In this document: positions 3,481-43,924 of the stretch, piece by piece
Layout of the letters: each line of letters begins with the position of its first letter
Position numbering within the stretch: position 1 is the stretch's first letter
Assembly (NCBI GenBank): GCA_029556545.1
Contig: JAKQEQ010000011.1
Location: 1-53,369 of the forward strand
Direction of reading: 5' to 3'
DNA from: Candidatus Hydrogenedentota bacterium
GTDB taxonomy: Bacteria > Hydrogenedentota > Hydrogenedentia > Hydrogenedentales > JAGMZX01
Length of the DNA: 53,369 nucleotides
Made by a program: the position numbers and the translations under genes
The notes under the pieces: generated by a model
The model's input: the letters and a program-made list of their open reading frames with translations, nothing else
Database searches by the model: none
Told to the model about the DNA's origin: nothing

Positions 3481-6066
3481 TTAAGCAATACCCGGGCAGA
3501 ATCCGTCCTCCGTGCCCTCGTCCGGGCAGTAGTGGTAGCCGGGGAAGTTGTAGAACTGGATCACCCGCAACAACTCGGTCAGCGCAATCTGCCAATTCTG
3601 CGGCGCGTAGTCGCTCGCGTGCGGGCAGCAATCCTGGTTCGCGCCGGGTCCCGGCACGTACCCGTCTTCCGTGCTCAACGGGTCGTCCGCGCAGTGGAAC
3701 CCGCCCGAGTTGTAGAACTGAATCACCCGCAGCAACTCGGTCAACGCGATCAGGTTGTCCTGCGACTGGTCCGCCGTGTGGTACTCGCTCGCGCAGGGGT
3801 CGCCTTCGCCCTCGCCTTCACCCTCACCCTCGCCTTCACCCTCACCTTCACCTTCACCTTCACCTTCACCGCCACCATAGAGGTCGCTGCAATCGATCAC
3901 ACCGTTTCCATTGACGTCCACGGCGTCAAACTGCGCTTGCGTAATGCCGCTGTTCAGGCCGTGAACCTCGCCGAGGGTCAGCACATCGTCCTCGTTGTCG
4001 TCGAGGCCGGGCAGGAGGTTGAACAACCAATCCACGGCCAGGAACTCGGCCATGCTCAACTCGTTGTCGCCGTTGGTGTCGACAAGCCACCAGCCGAGCC
4101 CCAAGGTAAAATCGCTGAGGCCCGTGACCGCCGAGACTTCGGCGCGGCTCAGCGTCCCGTTGCCGTTCGTGTCCCCGAACGCGATCATGAGCAGGTAGTA
4201 GCTCTCGGCGCCGTCAATGTCGCACGAGGGCTCGCCCTCGCCCTCACCTTCGCCCTCGCCCTCGCCTTCACCTTCGCCTTCACCTTCACCTTCACCTTCA
4301 CCTTCACCTTCACTGGGGCAGGGTGGGCACCCGCCGCCATCGGCTGTGGCGGCGTCGTTCAATGCGGCTGCGACAAACGTGTTGAAATCGGCGGGGCCAC
4401 TTACTGTCGCGTTGTACTCGCCGATGTTGCAGACCCAGTCATAGTCGGGGTCGCCGTTGGACGCGAGATACGGGCTGGCCGAGAAATCGTAGTTGCTCAG
4501 GTCGACGGTGGGGAAGAGCGGGATGCTGTTGAGCAGGTTCAGGATGGCGTCGATGAGGCTTTGCTCGCCCTGGGTCGTAATGCCCGCGACCAACGGGACG
4601 AACAGGCCGTCCGGCAGCAGCGTGCCGATAAGGGGGATGCCGTCGAGCAGCGCCTGAGCCTGCGCCCGGTTGCTCATGAACGCGACGCGGGTGCAGCAGA
4701 AGCAGTTCAGCGACGTCGTGGCGAGCACGGTGTCGAGCAGGCGCGCCTGGGCCACGTCCACCATGCCGTTGCTGTCGATATCCGCGGCGTCGGGGTCGCC
4801 CACGAGCGAGCTGATGATCAGCATGCCGTAGAGTTGGCGCAGTGAACTCTCGAATCCGGCGGTTATCGGGGTGTTCGTGCAGGTGATGTGGCAGGCGTCG
4901 GCGTAGCAGGAGCCCTCGGGCCCCGGCTCGACGCCAAACAGTTCGAGACAGTCAATGTAGCCATCGCCGTTGGCATCGACGTCGTCGAATTGCTCCTGCG
5001 TGATGTCGTCGGAAAGCTCGCGGAGGTTGGCCAAGGTAACCAGGTTGTCTTCGTCGGGATCGATATCCGGCATGAGGCTCCGCAATAGCGAATTGCCCGT
5101 GAACTCTTCGAGCGAGAGGTAACCGTCGCCGTTCGAGTCGATGAGGAACCACCCGAGGGATAGCCAACTCGCCAAGGCCTCGAACTCGTCGCGCGACAAG
5201 GTCAGGTCATCGTTCAGGTCGCCGAACAGGAGCATGAACTTGTAATAGTTCTCCGGTGAATCGATGTCGCATTGTTCACCTTCGCCCTCACCCTCGCCTT
5301 CCCCCTCGCCTTCGCCTTCGGCGCCGCAGTCGGGGCAGCCGCCGTAATAGTCCTTGATGGTGTCGTTTGTCGCCGCCGCCACGAAAGCGTCGTAATCGTT
5401 GGGGGCCGTCACGACCCAGGCGTTGTACTCGCCGATATTGCAGACCCTGTCCGTGTCGGCGTCGCCGTTCTTGTGCAGGTAGGGTTCCGCGTCCCCGTTG
5501 AACACGGCGAAATCGATCGGCGGCATATTCGGGATGACTTGCGCCAGAAAGCCGATGAGCGAGTTGACAAGTTCCTCCTGGCCGGATGTGGTCATGGCCG
5601 CGAGCACGGCGACGAGGAGGTCTTTGTCCGGCGGCGCGGGCATGGGGATGCCGTAAATGTCCGACGGCCAGACGGCCAGAATGGCCAGTGCGACAACCTC
5701 CGCCGCGATGCGGTTCTGCAGGTACGGCTCATAGACGCAGCAATGATTCGGCGCGAGGCGGTCCGAGAGGATCGCGTCGAAGAGCCGCGCATGGGCAATC
5801 TCGGGCATGCCGTCGAAATCAAGATCGGCGGTCTCCGGGTTGATGACGTAGCCGATAATCGGGATATTGCTCAGGGTGGTGTAGAGCTCGCGCAGGTCGT
5901 CCTCGTAGTGCGGGTTGTAGCCCAGCCCGAGACACCACCAGTTCGGGCACGGCTCAACGTTGCAGAACGTGTCGTCTTGCGCCGCGGCCATCGGCGCAAG
6001 CCCCAATAACAGTAGTGCGCCGCACCATGCCGCCCGCCTGCCCGCATTTGTGTGCTTCTTCTGCAT
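3481..6066 (-). CDS. Secreted EF-hand protein with duplicated module, (Glu-Gly)n linkers and paired C-terminal tag
   Basis: 861 aa with a signal peptide ending near residue 29. The architecture is a duplication. Module 1 (about 35-247) and module 2 (about 390-585) share DxDxxGMxxxAxARLxDxxL, a Cys-Cys pair, PYLxxNGDxDxxxVCNIGEYNA and a closing GGCPxC. Each is followed by a (Glu-Gly)n linker and a block of EF-hand loops (265-377 and 615-732) with canonical loops such as DSNGDGYLSLEE and DANGDGYIDCLE, so calcium binding is likely. A third linker (733-755) leads to a C-terminal doublet (762-861) in which TELLRVIQFYN occurs twice. AGAGGA precedes the ATG by 9 nt. No catalytic domain is recognised. 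An extracellular structural or adhesive role is inferred. Confidence 0.88.
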   Translation of the reverse strand: MQKKHTNAGRRAAWCGALLLLGLAPMAAAQDDTFCNVEPCPNWWCLGLGYNPHYEDDLRELYTTLSNIPIIGYVINPETADLDFDGMPEIAHARLFDAILSDRLAPNHCCVYEPYLQNRIAAEVVALAILAVWPSDIYGIPMPAPPDKDLLVAVLAAMTTSGQEELVNSLIGFLAQVIPNMPPIDFAVFNGDAEPYLHKNGDADTDRVCNIGEYNAWVVTAPNDYDAFVAAATNDTIKDYYGGCPDCGAEGEGEGEGEGEGEGEQCDIDSPENYYKFMLLFGDLNDDLTLSRDEFEALASWLSLGWFLIDSNGDGYLSLEEFTGNSLLRSLMPDIDPDEDNLVTLANLRELSDDITQEQFDDVDANGDGYIDCLELFGVEPGPEGSCYADACHITCTNTPITAGFESSLRQLYGMLIISSLVGDPDAADIDSNGMVDVAQARLLDTVLATTSLNCFCCTRVAFMSNRAQAQALLDGIPLIGTLLPDGLFVPLVAGITTQGEQSLIDAILNLLNSIPLFPTVDLSNYDFSASPYLASNGDPDYDWVCNIGEYNATVSGPADFNTFVAAALNDAATADGGGCPPCPSEGEGEGEGEGEGEGEGEGEGEGEGEGEPSCDIDGAESYYLLMIAFGDTNGNGTLSRAEVSAVTGLSDFTLGLGWWLVDTNGDNELSMAEFLAVDWLFNLLPGLDDNEDDVLTLGEVHGLNSGITQAQFDAVDVNGNGVIDCSDLYGGGEGEGEGEGEGEGEGEGEGEGEGDPCASEYHTADQSQDNLIALTELLRVIQFYNSGGFHCADDPLSTEDGYVPGPGANQDCCPHASDYAPQNWQIALTELLRVIQFYNFPGYHYCPDEGTEDGFCPGIA

Positions 6067-6192
6067 GACTTTGTTCCTCTTTCTGGCTTGCGCCCTGTGC
6101 TACCCGCCATAGGCGGAAGCGGTGCGCGAATAAGCTCGTTTTCCCGCGAATACATGTTCCGTGCTGATCGGGCGCGTCGCGGCGCGCGAGGT

Positions 6193-6681
6193 TCAGACGC
6201 GGTCCGGCGGCGAGTGCGGCGTCCCCCCGGAAAGATGTCGATACATCTTCCCCCCGTAGAGGCGCCTTGGCGGCGGGTCCGATACCGGAGCTATGCGCCG
6301 CGCCGCAACGACGGCCGGCAAAGTAAACTCGGCCGGCGTCGTTTGATTGCTCTTGCCAATAAGCCGCACCGCGGACGGAACGCCCGCGGCCCACTCTCTA
6401 ACGTGCGAAGACACCGCCGGATCGGGGGCTTCGTGGCCGGTTTCCTCGATAATGCGCTGCAAATCGCGGATATCCGTCCGTCCGTCGCCATCGACGTCCG
6501 CCGCGTTCGGATCGCCGGTCCGCGCAAGCAACGCGGCGACGCACGCTTGCATATCGAGCACGTCTACTTGTTGATCGCCGTTGAGGTCCGCCGCCGCGCG
6601 GCCCAACACTACACCCCCCGCGCCCGACGCCAATACGGAGGCGCCGGCCACGACCAGCGCGACTAGTCCCCTGCACCACAC
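6193..6681 (-). CDS. Small exported dockerin-like protein
   Basis: About 162 aa. A hydrophobic signal-like N-terminus is followed by two 12-residue calcium loops in dockerin type I arrangement: DLNGDQQVDVLDMQ and, 22 residues later, DVDGDGRTDIRDLQRII. Each is followed by an F-helix-like segment. The remaining ~100 residues are Pro/Arg-rich and show no recognisable fold. The GTG at 6681 is preferred because AGGAG lies 11 nt upstream; the GTG at 6693 would overlap that site. Dockerins normally dock to cohesins; none is seen here, so the function may be simple Ca-dependent folding. It precedes the EF-hand protein in the same direction with a 126-bp gap. Confidence 0.75.
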   Translation of the reverse strand: MWCRGLVALVVAGASVLASGAGGVVLGRAAADLNGDQQVDVLDMQACVAALLARTGDPNAADVDGDGRTDIRDLQRIIEETGHEAPDPAVSSHVREWAAGVPSAVRLIGKSNQTTPAEFTLPAVVAARRIAPVSDPPPRRLYGGKMYRHLSGGTPHSPPDRV

Positions 6682-6705
6682 GGTGTTCTGCACTCCTACA
6701 GCTTA

Positions 6706-19942: not shown

Positions 19943-20192
19943 GCGCTTCTCCAACGAGCGATAGGCCATCATTTCGCGGCGCGCGCATGCAAGGGCCGCG
20001 CCGGGCATAGGTCCCATGAGCCCCATAGGACCTGTGAAGTCCCACCGCCGAGAACCGCTTGTAGCGCTATCGTATTCTTGCACCAGGCGCGGCGCAACCG
20101 GTACGATGCTCTTTCAGGACGCGGCGGGCGCACATCCCAACCCTGTCTTCCCAGCCGCCCGGTCATGCGGACGGCTACAAGGATTACGAGAC
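19943..20192. other. Intergenic region between the glycosidase-like gene and tatC
   Basis: 250 bp. Contains an imperfect inverted pair AGGTCC...GGACCT around 20009-20033. Related hexamers appear in the hairpin at 52822-52845. No gene is supported; a plus-strand open frame here is only the upstream extension of tatC. Confidence 0.4.
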
Positions 20193-21044
20193 TTGCCGGA
20201 AGAAGACACCAACGATAATGAAGCGCGGATGACCTTCACGGAGCATCTGGGCGAACTGCGGACGCGCCTGATCCGCGCCGTGCTTTCGGTGGCCGTTGCA
20301 TTTGTCTTTTGCGCCTTCTTCTCGGACCGGATTCTCTACTATCTGGCGAAGCCGCTCATTCCCGAGGCGACGCAGAACGTCGAGACCACGGGCGAAAACG
20401 GCGCGGGCTCCGAGGGGGCGAGTCCATCAGGGACGGGTGCGCCGGCGGCTTCCCCTCGAAAAGCGAATGTTTCCTGGACCACGCTGGGCGCGCTCGAGGG
20501 GCTTATCGTCCGGTTCAAGGTGGCCATTTACGCGGCCATTGTGCTCGCGTTTCCGTATATCCTCTATCAGGCGTGCGCGTTCATCTTTCCCGGCCTCAAA
20601 CCCAACGAGGTGATCCTCGTCAAGTATCTGCTTCTGGGTTGCGGCGCGTTGGCCACGCTCGGCGTGGCGACCGCTTACTTCGGCGTGTTTCCGCTGGTGC
20701 TGCCGTACCTGTTGGAATACACTCCCGTGTTTGCCGAGGCGCAACTCCGATTGGACGAGAATATCTCGTTGATTATCATGGCCCTGCTCGGGTTCTGCGT
20801 GGCGTTCCAGTTTCCGATGGCCGTGCTTGTGCTGGTGTACATGGGGCTGCTGTCGCCCGAGACCCTGAGCAAGCACCGCCGTGTCGCTATTGTCGGGCTC
20901 GCGGTGGCCTCGGCGTTCTTCACGCCGCCCGACCCGTTCTCGATGATGATTATGCTGGTTCCCTTGGTCCTTCTCTATGAAATCAGCATTATTCTGTCTA
21001 GAATCATGGTGCGGCGTCGCGCCGCGGCCAGTACCGGAACGTAA
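20193..21044 (+). CDS. tatC: Twin-arginine translocase subunit TatC
   Basis: About 283 aa. The opening MTFTEHLGELRTRLI block, six hydrophobic helices, ACAFIFPGLKPNE (cytoplasmic-loop FxxPGL), LVLVYMGLLSPETLSKHRR and the AFFTPPDPFSMMIMLVP block identify TatC, which recognises twin-arginine signals with TatB in the inner membrane. The first periplasmic loop is enlarged by a low-complexity Gly/Ser/Ala/Pro segment (GENGAGSEGASPSGTGAP). I chose the TTG at 20193 because AAGGA lies 9 nt upstream and the resulting acidic N-terminus resembles other TatC proteins; the ATG at 20229 is the alternative but has no clear ribosome binding site. Confidence 0.9.
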   Translation: MPEEDTNDNEARMTFTEHLGELRTRLIRAVLSVAVAFVFCAFFSDRILYYLAKPLIPEATQNVETTGENGAGSEGASPSGTGAPAASPRKANVSWTTLGALEGLIVRFKVAIYAAIVLAFPYILYQACAFIFPGLKPNEVILVKYLLLGCGALATLGVATAYFGVFPLVLPYLLEYTPVFAEAQLRLDENISLIIMALLGFCVAFQFPMAVLVLVYMGLLSPETLSKHRRVAIVGLAVASAFFTPPDPFSMMIMLVPLVLLYEISIILSRIMVRRRAAASTGT

Positions 21045-21059
21045 GGAGTTCGGCGCGCC

Positions 21060-21581
21060 ATGATAGGCATCGGTTTCGGCGAGATGATCCTGCTGGCGGG
21101 GATCGCGCTCATTGTCATCGGACCGGAGAAGTTCCCCGATTTCGCCAAAGTGGTCGTCCGCACCATCCGTGACCTGCGCGGCTACATGGATGAAGTGAAG
21201 AAGGAACTCTCCGAGGAACTGAAGCCCGTCGAGGAGGAGATGCGATCCCTTACCCGGCCCGACGCGCGGAGTTACAGCCGCCCCGCTGCAACGCCGGCAC
21301 GCCCCGCGGTCACGAACACCCCAGCCCCCCAAGAGACGGCACCCGCGACCGAAGGCCCCGATCAGAGTGCTTCCGCCGCCCCGCCCTCGTTGACGCCTTA
21401 CGGTGGGTATTCACCGGAACAGGACGAAGACTACGACCATTCGGCAGAGAACGAGGCGCCGGGGCCGGATCACGGTGCGGACGCCGGCCAAGACGGGGCC
21501 GAGCCCGCGAGCGCGGGGGAGAGCGAAGGCGGGGGCGAGGGCGTTACGGAGATCAGTTCGCCTGACCGGCTGGACGGATAG
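21060..21581 (+). CDS. tatB: Sec-independent translocase TatB
   Basis: 173 aa. MIGIGFGEMILLAGIALIVI is the single N-terminal helix, with the conserved Glu at position 8. GPEKFPDFAK is the hinge, and an amphipathic helix rich in Arg/Lys/Glu follows (about 25-60). The long acidic, Pro-rich C-terminal tail is typical of TatB rather than TatA. The gene lies 15 bp after tatC with AAGGAG upstream, so the two are co-transcribed. TatB hands substrates to TatC. No TatA homologue is present in the window; it may be elsewhere, or this protein may serve both roles. Confidence 0.88.
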   Translation: MIGIGFGEMILLAGIALIVIGPEKFPDFAKVVVRTIRDLRGYMDEVKKELSEELKPVEEEMRSLTRPDARSYSRPAATPARPAVTNTPAPQETAPATEGPDQSASAAPPSLTPYGGYSPEQDEDYDHSAENEAPGPDHGADAGQDGAEPASAGESEGGGEGVTEISSPDRLDG

Positions 21582-22237: not shown

Positions 22238-24970
22238 ATGGCAAAACGAATTCGAGCCGCGGGGTGGTGCGCCGTTCTGCTCGTTATTGCGGTCATTCCG
22301 GCGTCGGCGCAGACAACGGACGTTGACTTCGATTTCATTATGCGGTGCGCGGATTACTTCCTGGCGAAAGAGATGGGGGCGGGCGCGTTTCCGCCATTCT
22401 TCGGCACGGACCGGGACGGCAACGGCATTCGGGAGGACGATTCGCTGGCGATGCTGTCAGGGCTGTTGTTAGGCAACTCCCCGAATATAGAGCCCAGCGT
22501 GCGCGGCGAGGTGCAGGCGGGGTTCCAGGTGAACTTGCAGCAGGTGGCGACCGACCTGTACATCCAGGCGCAGGTGTTGGGGTTCAACGTGAATATCGAC
22601 ATTCTGGAGGAGTTGCGGGATTCCGACCCCTTCTTTGCTTTCGCCGTACAGCATCTGCTGGCGGGATATATGACCATCGCGGACAACGTGACCATCAATT
22701 TTCTGAGGAATTTCCTGAAGGATCTCGTGCGCAAGTTCGCCCAGCGCGAAGGCTACGGCGAGTACCTGGACCTGGTAAACCTGGACGAACTCATCAAGTT
22801 TCACGCTTCGGATTACCGCACCTTCGGCGATGCGCCCTCCGAGCCGAACTACCTGGGCGCGAACGGCAATGTGGACTATCACCTCAACGGGACCACGAAC
22901 CGGCAGGAATATGATGCATCGAGCGGGACGTTCCGGCGCGAGGACTGGCTGGGGCGCTGCAACATGGTCGCCCCCATCCGCATTGTGACCACGCCCAACA
23001 GCGGGAGCGTGCAGACCGGCGACCAGTTTGCCTTCACCATACAGGCGGTGGGCGGCACGGGTCCGTTGCGCTATCAATGGCTTCGCACGGACTCGAACGG
23101 CAAAGAATTCCTGGAGTCGTATGACTTGGTGGGCGGCAATTTCGACGTTTACAACCTGCACTACGCGAGCGTGCTGGACCATGCAAAGTTCATGGTGGCC
23201 GTGTCGGACGATCTCTCGCAGTGGAATCCGGGCACGCGACTCGGGGGCCGGACGTCCTGGTACGGGACGCTGAACGTAACCGTGGTTCCGTTCCAGATTG
23301 TGGCGCAGCCCATAGGCGCCACGCTTCCCATCGGGTCGAGTCATATGTTCGAGTTCCGCGTCCGGGGCGGCACGCGCTATCCGTCGTATCAGTGGAAGTT
23401 CAACGGCGCGAACGCCGGGCCGAACGCTTCGATATGGACGATCAACCCGGTGACGGGCTCCAGCCAGGGGATGTATCAATGCATCGCGACTTCGGCGGCG
23501 GAGCAGTTGTCGTCGTTCATCGTGACGCTCACGGTTTCGGGCCGCGGCGAAAAGGTGATATTCCCGGACGCGAACCTGGACACGGCGGTGCGGGGCGTGC
23601 TGGGCTACCCGGCGGGCATCGACCTCTACGAGGGCGACTGTCTGTTGGTGCAATCTTTGACTGCGCATAGCGCGAACATCACGAATCTCACGAACATCAG
23701 CAAGCTCGTGAATCTCCGGCATCTGGACCTGTGGAACAACGGCGTGGCCGACTTGTGGAAACTCATCCCGCTGCCGGGGCAGCCGATAATGCCGCTGCAG
23801 TATCTGAACGTGGGGCAAAACAACGTGTCCAATATTGCGCCGCTTGCGCAGTTGCCCACGCTCGAAACGGTATTCCTTTGGAACAATCAAGTCGCCGATA
23901 TCAGCCCGCTGCTGGCGATCGAAGGGCTGGGCGCCGGCGACGAAGTCGGCCTCGAAGGCAACCCGTTGTCGGAGACAGCGCTGTGCGTTGACATTCCGGA
24001 ACTGTTGGCGCGCGGGGTAACGGTCGGTTTCGACGGGGCGTGCATCGCCGCGGAAGGGGAAGGCGAGCCCGAAGGGGAGGAAGGCGCGGCTGAAGGTGAA
24101 GGCGAGGGTGAGGGCGAAGGCGAGGGCGAGGGTGAAGGCGAGGGCGAAGGCGAGGGCGAGGAGATACCGGAGTGCGATATGGTGTTTCGCATGAACAAGC
24201 TGGCGGCACTGAACGATTTTACCATTGTTACATCGCGCATCGAAGTGCCTGTGTCGCGTCCGATAACGGACGTGGCCGTGGTGTTGAACATCACGCACGC
24301 GGCCACGTCGCAGTTGGTGGCGCAGTTGACTTCGCCACACGGCATACCCGTCACGCTGTTTGTGCGCGAAGGCGCGTCAGGCGCAAACCTGATCGAGACG
24401 CGCTTCACGGATGAGGCAACCACGCCGTTTGTATATGGCACGGCGCCGTATACGGGGAGTTTCCGACCGTTCCTGCCCTTTAATCAGTTGGATGGCCGGG
24501 ACATGCTCGGCGTGTGGACCTTGACGGTGTCCGACACGACCCTGGGCATCACGGGCACGCTGGACAGTTGGCGTCTGCACTTCAATCCGTGTGTGCCGTC
24601 CGAGGGCGAAGGTGAAGGCGAAGGCGAGGGCGAAGGCGAGGGTGAGGGCGAAGGCGGCGCGCCGGGATACCACAGCGCGGATATCAACCAGGATTGGCGC
24701 ATCGATCTTGGCGAAATGTTGCGCGTGATTCAGTTGTTTAACGCGGGGTCGATCTCCTGCAGCGCGACGACGGAAGACGGCTATGAACTCGGCGCGGGCG
24801 ACACAAGTTGTGGGCCCCACAGCTCGGATTACGCGCCCCAGGACTGGCGGATATCGCTGTCGGAGACCCTGCGGACCATACAGTTCTACAACGCGGTCGG
24901 CGGGTTCTACCACGTGGACCCGAGCGGGGAGGACGGGTTCCGCCCCGGCCCGGCTCCCGCGGCCCGCTAA
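22238..24970 (+). CDS. Secreted multidomain protein: novel module, Ig-like, LRR, P-domain, (Glu-Gly)n linkers, paired C-terminal tag
   Basis: 910 aa with a signal peptide (1-25). Residues about 30-240 are a diverged copy of the module duplicated in the protein at 3481-6066, with matching landmarks DRDGNGIREDDSLAMLSGLL and NYLGANGNVDYHLNGTTNRQEY. Two Ig-like repeats follow (about 247-350 and 352-435; RYQWLRTD, SYQWKFNG). Leucine-rich repeats come next (about 470-580; LRHLDLWNNGVADL, LETVFLWNNQVADI), then a (Glu-Gly)n linker and a proprotein-convertase P-like domain (about 648-785; LVAQLTSPHGIPVTLF, DMLGVWTLTVSD). A second linker and the paired C-terminal tag (about 811-900) end the protein. 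GGAGG lies 12 nt before the ATG. An extracellular binding role is inferred; no protease domain is present. Confidence 0.88.
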   Translation: MAKRIRAAGWCAVLLVIAVIPASAQTTDVDFDFIMRCADYFLAKEMGAGAFPPFFGTDRDGNGIREDDSLAMLSGLLLGNSPNIEPSVRGEVQAGFQVNLQQVATDLYIQAQVLGFNVNIDILEELRDSDPFFAFAVQHLLAGYMTIADNVTINFLRNFLKDLVRKFAQREGYGEYLDLVNLDELIKFHASDYRTFGDAPSEPNYLGANGNVDYHLNGTTNRQEYDASSGTFRREDWLGRCNMVAPIRIVTTPNSGSVQTGDQFAFTIQAVGGTGPLRYQWLRTDSNGKEFLESYDLVGGNFDVYNLHYASVLDHAKFMVAVSDDLSQWNPGTRLGGRTSWYGTLNVTVVPFQIVAQPIGATLPIGSSHMFEFRVRGGTRYPSYQWKFNGANAGPNASIWTINPVTGSSQGMYQCIATSAAEQLSSFIVTLTVSGRGEKVIFPDANLDTAVRGVLGYPAGIDLYEGDCLLVQSLTAHSANITNLTNISKLVNLRHLDLWNNGVADLWKLIPLPGQPIMPLQYLNVGQNNVSNIAPLAQLPTLETVFLWNNQVADISPLLAIEGLGAGDEVGLEGNPLSETALCVDIPELLARGVTVGFDGACIAAEGEGEPEGEEGAAEGEGEGEGEGEGEGEGEGEGEGEEIPECDMVFRMNKLAALNDFTIVTSRIEVPVSRPITDVAVVLNITHAATSQLVAQLTSPHGIPVTLFVREGASGANLIETRFTDEATTPFVYGTAPYTGSFRPFLPFNQLDGRDMLGVWTLTVSDTTLGITGTLDSWRLHFNPCVPSEGEGEGEGEGEGEGEGEGGAPGYHSADINQDWRIDLGEMLRVIQLFNAGSISCSATTEDGYELGAGDTSCGPHSSDYAPQDWRISLSETLRTIQFYNAVGGFYHVDPSGEDGFRPGPAPAAR

Positions 24971-43737: not shown

Positions 43738-43924
43738 GCTGGATTCCCGCTTTCGCGGGAATGACGGCGGGGTGCGACGTGGCCATTCTTGGTCATTCCC
43801 GCTTTCGCGGGAATGACGGCGGGGTGCGACGCGGCCATTCTTGGCCGTTCCCGCTTGCGCCGGAATGACGGGAGGGGACAGACCGGGGCTGTTTCTCGTC
43901 ATTCCCGCGAAAGCGGGAATCCAG
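43738..43924. repeat. Cluster of ATTCCCGC-GCGGGAAT hairpins with inverted ends
   Basis: Perfect hairpins ATTCCCGC-TTTC-GCGGGAAT occur at 43743-43762 and 43795-43814, a degenerate one follows at about 43847-43867, and ATTCCCGC-GAAA-GCGGGAAT lies in reverse orientation at 43901-43920. The first three stand at a 52-bp period, with GGCGGGGTGCGAC spacers. The cluster starts CTGGATTCCCGC and ends with its reverse complement. It is a widespread bacterial palindromic repeat type. It may also terminate the converging transcripts. Confidence 0.8.

Follow-up and report, generated by a model that had tools for sequence, protein, structure and literature searches.

A predicted helical module with two EF-hand-type loops recurs in putative secreted proteins of Hydrogenedentota

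The locus

The window analysed here, a stretch of 53,369 nucleotides, is one contig (C52) of the 6.1-Mb draft genome of a Candidatus Hydrogenedentota bacterium. Translation of positions 3481..6066 (-) yields P0002, a protein of 861 aa in which a signal-peptide-like part, copy 1 of the module under study, a Gly-Glu linker, an EF-hand region, copy 2, a linker, an EF-hand region, a further linker and a C-terminal domain follow one another from the N to the C terminus. As the initial annotation had proposed, a module of about 200 aa is present twice, at residues 34-249 (copy 1, 5320..5967 (-)) and 386-585 (copy 2, 4312..4911 (-)), and the landmarks that it had listed occur in both copies in the order it gave. 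The duplicated unit is, however, larger than it had recognized, since it includes, besides the module, the Gly-Glu linker and about 115 aa of EF-hand region. These larger units, residues 34-380 (4927..5967 (-)) and 386-732 (3871..4911 (-)), are 41% identical over 363 alignment columns (BLASTP, E 4e-66).

The EF-hand regions that follow the modules lie at 3874-4224 and 4933-5319 (-), and the best stretches of the Pfam EF-hand matches in P0002 fall at residues 307-376. One loop of the EF-hand region has Pro at position 2, a trait that we take to recall lanmodulin. The lanmodulin match of P0002 (E 4.4e-5, far under the cut-off) covers residues 309-375 of the EF-hand region, outside the modules, and was set aside. 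Directly upstream of P0002, a small ORF at 6193-6693 (-) has a Dockerin_1 match above the cut-off.

The second protein, P0001 (22238..24970 (+), 910 aa by translation), begins with a third module copy, followed by Ig, LRR, a Gly-Glu linker, a P_proprotein domain and a C-terminal domain. This diverged N-terminal copy (22283..22972 (+)) is supported by profile searches, a profile-profile match and a structural model. Both P0001 and P0002 have a signal-peptide-like N-terminus as judged by eye, and by the same judgement the first residues of the third copy belong to that part of P0001. Immediately upstream of P0001 lie tatC and a TatA-like gene (20016-21581 (+)), and downstream an OmpA-like and a TPR/YfiO-like gene. 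Elsewhere in the window, at 43743-43871, there is a 52-bp tandem repeat (2.5 copies, 93% matches), whose unit holds a short inverted repeat.

The two proteins also share a C-terminal domain of about 100 aa, located at 3484..3795 (-) in P0002 and at 24665-24967 (+) in P0001, in which two dockerin-like loop-helix repeats are discernible by eye. Neither Pfam nor NCBIfam gave a name for it. It is present in at least 73 copies in the source genome and in 41 of 68 genomes of the phylum, and may have a sorting or anchoring role.

Loops and conserved residues

Each module has one EF-hand-type loop near either end, with a helical core of about 100 residues in between. The loops of copy 1 occupy residues 81-92 (5791..5826 (-)) and 202-213 (5428..5463 (-)), and those of copy 2 residues 429-440 (4747..4782 (-)), with Gln at position 12, and 539-550 (4417..4452 (-)), with Glu at this position. 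Both strings that the initial annotation had quoted from the N-terminus of P0001 were found there, and they correspond to the loops of the third copy at residues 58-69 (22409..22444 (+)) and 211-224 (22868..22909 (+)), the latter with a two-residue insertion. The two motifs had thus been noted before, but their nature as EF-hand-type calcium loops had been missed.

Ligand positions were counted in an alignment of 60 modules (A4), in copy-2 numbering with loop 1 at 44-55 and loop 2 at 154-165. Positions 1, 3, 5, 9 and 12 of loop 2 are occupied by Asp (59), Asp (60), Asp (59), Asn (59) and Glu (60) in the 60 rows, giving the full EF-hand ligand set in at least 59 of 60 rows at each position. Loop 1 shows the EF-hand ligands at positions 1 (Asp in 59/60, the remaining row being gapped throughout the loop), 3 (Asp 54, Asn 4, Thr 1), 5 (Asn 50, Asp 6, Ser 3) and 9 (Asp 55, Glu 4), with a variable position 12 (Gln 34, Glu 17, His 7, Ser 1). 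As this last position is Gln, His or Ser in 42 of 60 rows, Ca2+ binding by loop 1 may be weak or absent in the majority of members. One relative of the third copy (L020) has lost ligands in loop 2.

In a profile search of the PDB, EF-hand proteins matched over the loop-2 part only, CIB1 with its last EF-hand ranking first (E 0.014), ahead of calmodulins (E 0.05 and above). EF-hand_1 matched 4 of 60 modules at E<=1, the best at 0.021 and below the gathering cut-off, and copy 2 was not among them. Outside the loops, near-invariance across the whole family is limited to a few positions, Asn81 and Tyr166 among them.

Predicted structure

The AlphaFold model of copy 2, built from 60 rows, is confident (pLDDT 94.6, pTM 0.92) and all-helical, with helices at 20-29, 31-37, 52-64, 71-91, 95-98, 104-114, 117-128, 146-149, 162-169 and 173-183 and no strands of three or more residues. 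A helix follows each loop without a break (52-64 after loop 1, 162-169 after loop 2). The preceding helices end at 37 and 149, going by secondary structure alone, and the loops start at 44 and 154. Because the helix before each loop thus ends five to seven residues earlier, we infer that these loop-helix units would be F-hands rather than full EF-hands.

Foldseek found no PDB match to copy 2 at E<=0.001 (best E 1.7), a missing match that does not prove a new fold. The best E-values were 2.9 for the third copy against the PDB and 2.0 for copy 2 against BFVD. In the VIA comparison of 98 chains, four reached Z>=2, the top value being 2.3.

Module types and cysteines

By eye, four types were distinguished on the alignment: A, the Cys-rich type of copies 1 and 2; B and C, found in tandem arrays; and D, that of P0001. 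Most of the 41 type-A rows have Cys at positions 2, 7, 11, 72, 73, 161, 195 and 198. Replacements of Cys11 and Cys72 coincide, both occurring in an identical set of 5 of the 41 rows, a pattern that suggests a disulfide between them. Since the five rows, all first modules, form one clade, this joint loss may go back to a single event. In four further rows, each the second module of a tandem array, positions 7, 11, 72, 73 and 198 lack their Cys jointly.

Distribution

With a profile of 18 rows from the source genome (A2), 39 matches were obtained in this genome at E<=0.1, 36 of them at E<=1e-6. The family is hence far bigger than the three copies first noticed. At the latter threshold, 49 of 68 Hydrogenedentota genomes had a match, compared with none of the 318 genomes from outside the phylum that complete the 386-genome set, in line with the restriction to Hydrogenedentota-like genomes that had been raised as a question. 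The 19 genomes of the phylum without a match fall mostly into one family (16 in f4), with one each in f5, f10 and f11.

One short pattern, sensitive only to the type of copies 1 and 2, was run against 84,980 species genomes and gave 30 loci in seven assemblies. By title, 20 loci belong to Hydrogenedentota, Hydrogenedentes or Hydrogenedens and 10 to 'uncultured bacterium' (three assemblies). Two of these three assemblies have long stretches of DNA identical to genomes from the taxonomic order to which the window belongs (L092-L055, L116-L056), and so have four of the assemblies with a Hydrogenedent- name, which assigns the window to this phylum. The third, CALEDJ, shared no DNA in two comparisons, though its two module ORFs (454 and 1153 aa) have the same lengths as two in G009, a genome of that taxonomic order. 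Neither viral contigs nor plasmids yielded a relative of the module, and a mobile origin was dismissed on these grounds. Within what was searched, the module is confined to Hydrogenedentota.

Architectures and history

In the source genome, Gly-Glu runs occur in 23 of 25 module-bearing ORFs and the C-terminal motif in 13 of 25, several of the ORFs lacking the latter being cut by contig ends. A Pfam scan of P0001, P0002 and twenty other module-bearing ORFs revealed as partners above the cut-off reprolysin, GH114, Bact_surface_Ig-like, Ig, LRR, InlB-type repeats (InlB B-repeat), CHRD, P_proprotein and EF-hand, and below it GDSL lipase, metallophosphatase and C-type lectin. For instance, a single ORF (L018:4445-7531 (+)) combines a reprolysin-type protease domain, the module and a GH114 domain.

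Two architectures are common to different families of the phylum. The order module-EF-module-EF was found in L091 to L095 and in L108, which is cut by a contig end. Tandem arrays of five modules are present in L099, L101, L102 and L116; variants have four modules, one of them cut (L118), or six, in the source genome (L014). One ORF of L110 contains two modules (4998-5600 and 5760-6362) with identical protein sequences, which either arose by duplication in recent times or are an artefact of the assembly.

A tree of 60 rows groups the modules of the P0002 architecture by their place in the protein: first modules fall into a single clade (8 rows, 100/100) and second modules into another (6 rows, 100/98). 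Likewise, slots one to four of the tandem arrays correspond to clades (99/94, 100/99, 100/97 and 99/99), and slot five to a group of five rows (98/89) that includes L098, a module outside an array. As the slots form clades of their own, the duplications would predate the divergence of the genomes, and slot identity has been kept since. Long branches meet in this tree, so the placement of the third copy is not to be trusted.

Comparison with known families

The claim that the module belongs to no named family held up: none of the 60 members has a match over the module above the cut-off in Pfam or NCBIfam, and PHROGs, searched with five members, does not cover the family (best E 0.024, PHROGs having no cut-off). 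Profile scans placed none of the three copies of the window in a known family. The literature on Hydrogenedentes or Hydrogenedentota that we searched for dockerin, cohesin, EF-hand, calcium-binding and novel families yielded no description of the domain.

The nearest likenesses concern the loops. EF-hand_1 and its relatives, calmodulin and CIB1 resemble the module in their 12-residue loop with ligands at positions 1, 3, 5, 9 and 12, to which loop 2 conforms fully, and in the helix after each loop. Unlike in these proteins, no helix directly enters either loop in the model, and a helical core lies between the loops, which are separated by 110 residues. TSP3_bac (PF18884), with a single match among the 60 members (E 0.038, below the cut-off), is similar to loop 2 (DxDxDGxxNxxEY-like) but forms a run of loops instead of a folded helical domain. 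The Amuc_1099 family (NF042425) matches 5 of 60 members at E<=0.1, and its likeness is confined to a short stretch over loop 2; in two members scanned singly, the match covered 16-18 residues and reached at best 19.4 bits against a cut-off of 50. Matches to TrAA12 were set aside, as their positions suggest that they fall on the Gly-Glu linkers. The domain is thus undescribed in the libraries and papers searched. As an extracellular domain with calcium loops it varies a kind already known, and its fold may be new.

Possible role of the module

The module is probably a calcium-stabilized structural or binding unit of secreted, surface-associated proteins. On this reading, its roughly 200 residues would fold on their own into an all-helical extracellular domain. 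After export, each loop would hold a Ca2+ ion. Both ions, joined in modules of the copy-1/2 type by cysteine bridges, would fix the helical core as a rigid block. This block would serve as a structural or binding accessory in multidomain secreted proteins, spacing, presenting or docking hydrolase, protease, Ig, LRR or lectin-like domains. The partner domains are too varied to indicate a single substrate. Attachment to the surface is likewise probable, given the linkers, the signal-like N-termini seen by eye and the unnamed C-terminal domain, which would keep the proteins at or near the cell surface. As each array slot keeps its own lineage, the contacts of a module, be they with the domain beside it or with a partner molecule, are probably specific to its slot and not interchangeable.

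Alternatively, the module might be an enlarged dockerin-like docking domain, in which two F-hands with a helical insert bind a cohesin-like partner and assemble a secreted complex. Dockerins have been characterized by duplicated F-hand motifs resembling EF-hands (PMC4728124). Like Dockerin_1 (PF00404), the module has two loop-helix units of the calcium-loop type in a putative extracellular domain, both of them seen in the copy-2 model. Loop 1 and its helix follow the dockerin pattern. Furthermore, Dockerin_1 matches above the cut-off occur at seven places in the genome, one of them next to P0002 (6193-6693), and Cohesin matches above the cut-off at four, two of which lie close together on contig C33. 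Yet Dockerin_1 is absent from the matches of the 60 modules at E<=1, and the 27 dockerin rows of the genome all lie outside the modules. Dockerins place two F-hands within about 60 residues and their profile has 57 positions; the loops of copy 2 start at 44 and 154, in a domain of some 200 aa that is three to four times longer. Moreover, dockerins usually occur once per protein, in contrast to the module with its arrays of up to six. We therefore regard a dockerin-like function as unlikely.

Even less probable is that the module is an enzyme whose conserved Asp and Asn residues form a catalytic or metal-catalytic site. There are indeed several near-invariant residues of charged or polar character, and Asn81 (55/60) and Thr113 (48/60) of the core lie outside the loops. 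The invariant acids, however, sit at the spacing of EF-hand ligands, the module is repeated in arrays and adjoins separate hydrolase domains, and no enzyme family matched above the cut-off. With few near-invariant positions besides the loop ligands, a structural or binding domain fits better than an enzyme.

Kinship of the third copy

That the three copies represent a real domain family, as the initial annotation had supposed, was borne out by two approaches. In an iterative profile search starting from the P0002 copies, the N-terminus of P0001 was hit by the second profile at E 0.0056 and by the third at 4.3e-10, in both cases before it was included in the profile. Independently grown profiles matched as well. 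A phmmer search from P0001 only gathered 17 rows, 11 of which (E<1e-15, one duplicate locus left out) made up a type-D profile; the type-A profile consisted of those 41 of the 60 rows of A4 with at least 31% identity to copy 2, the third copy being left out. In hhalign, these two profiles aligned over 129 columns with a probability of 97.6% (E 3.6e-12). The match persisted over 77 columns with both calcium loops masked (81.5%, E 1.1e-5) and over 60 columns with the inter-loop core alone (87.6%, E 3.5e-6), so that the alignment extends beyond the two motifs. Control probabilities were 0.7% for a reversed profile, 0.1% for a reversed core and at most 3.7% for 30 column-shuffled cores.

The AlphaFold model of the third copy (22310-22975) was obtained from an alignment (A6) of 50 of the 60 rows, mostly of other types, with the third copy trimmed. 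It is weaker than that of copy 2 (pLDDT 74, pTM 0.71). The Cys-rich segment and GGCPxC are features of copies 1 and 2 that the third copy lacks, and the final part of the core is not common to the third copy and the other two. It is most improbable that the third copy is unrelated and has only the two calcium loops in common with copies 1 and 2 through convergence: its identity to copy 2 is just 21-22% in mixed alignments, its branch is long (1.89) and neither the modest model nor the missing Cys-rich segment speaks for kinship, but the loop-masked and core-only matches stand far above the shuffled controls and the model, although built from a mixed alignment, keeps the main-helix order of copy 2. 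At the level of sequence profiles, a kinship of the third copy with copies 1 and 2 beyond the two motifs appears well supported.

Implications

Taken jointly, the data permit a more far-reaching reading, which we put forward only tentatively. The module might be a new fold, a helical core held by two far-apart calcium F-hands. It would have arisen within Hydrogenedentota and multiplied there into a construction kit peculiar to this lineage, from which secreted proteins are built and whose parts have fixed places in the arrays. If the fold is new, calcium F-hands would act in it as clamps for a separate helical core and not as a paired unit.

With our study, a profile, loop ligands and a confident model become available for an undescribed domain of a phylum that is poorly studied and largely uncultured, present in most of the genomes searched there. 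In the richest families, its annotation would inform large secreted proteins now called 'hypothetical', dozens of them per genome, and the stable slots make a partner-specific design of the arrays testable.
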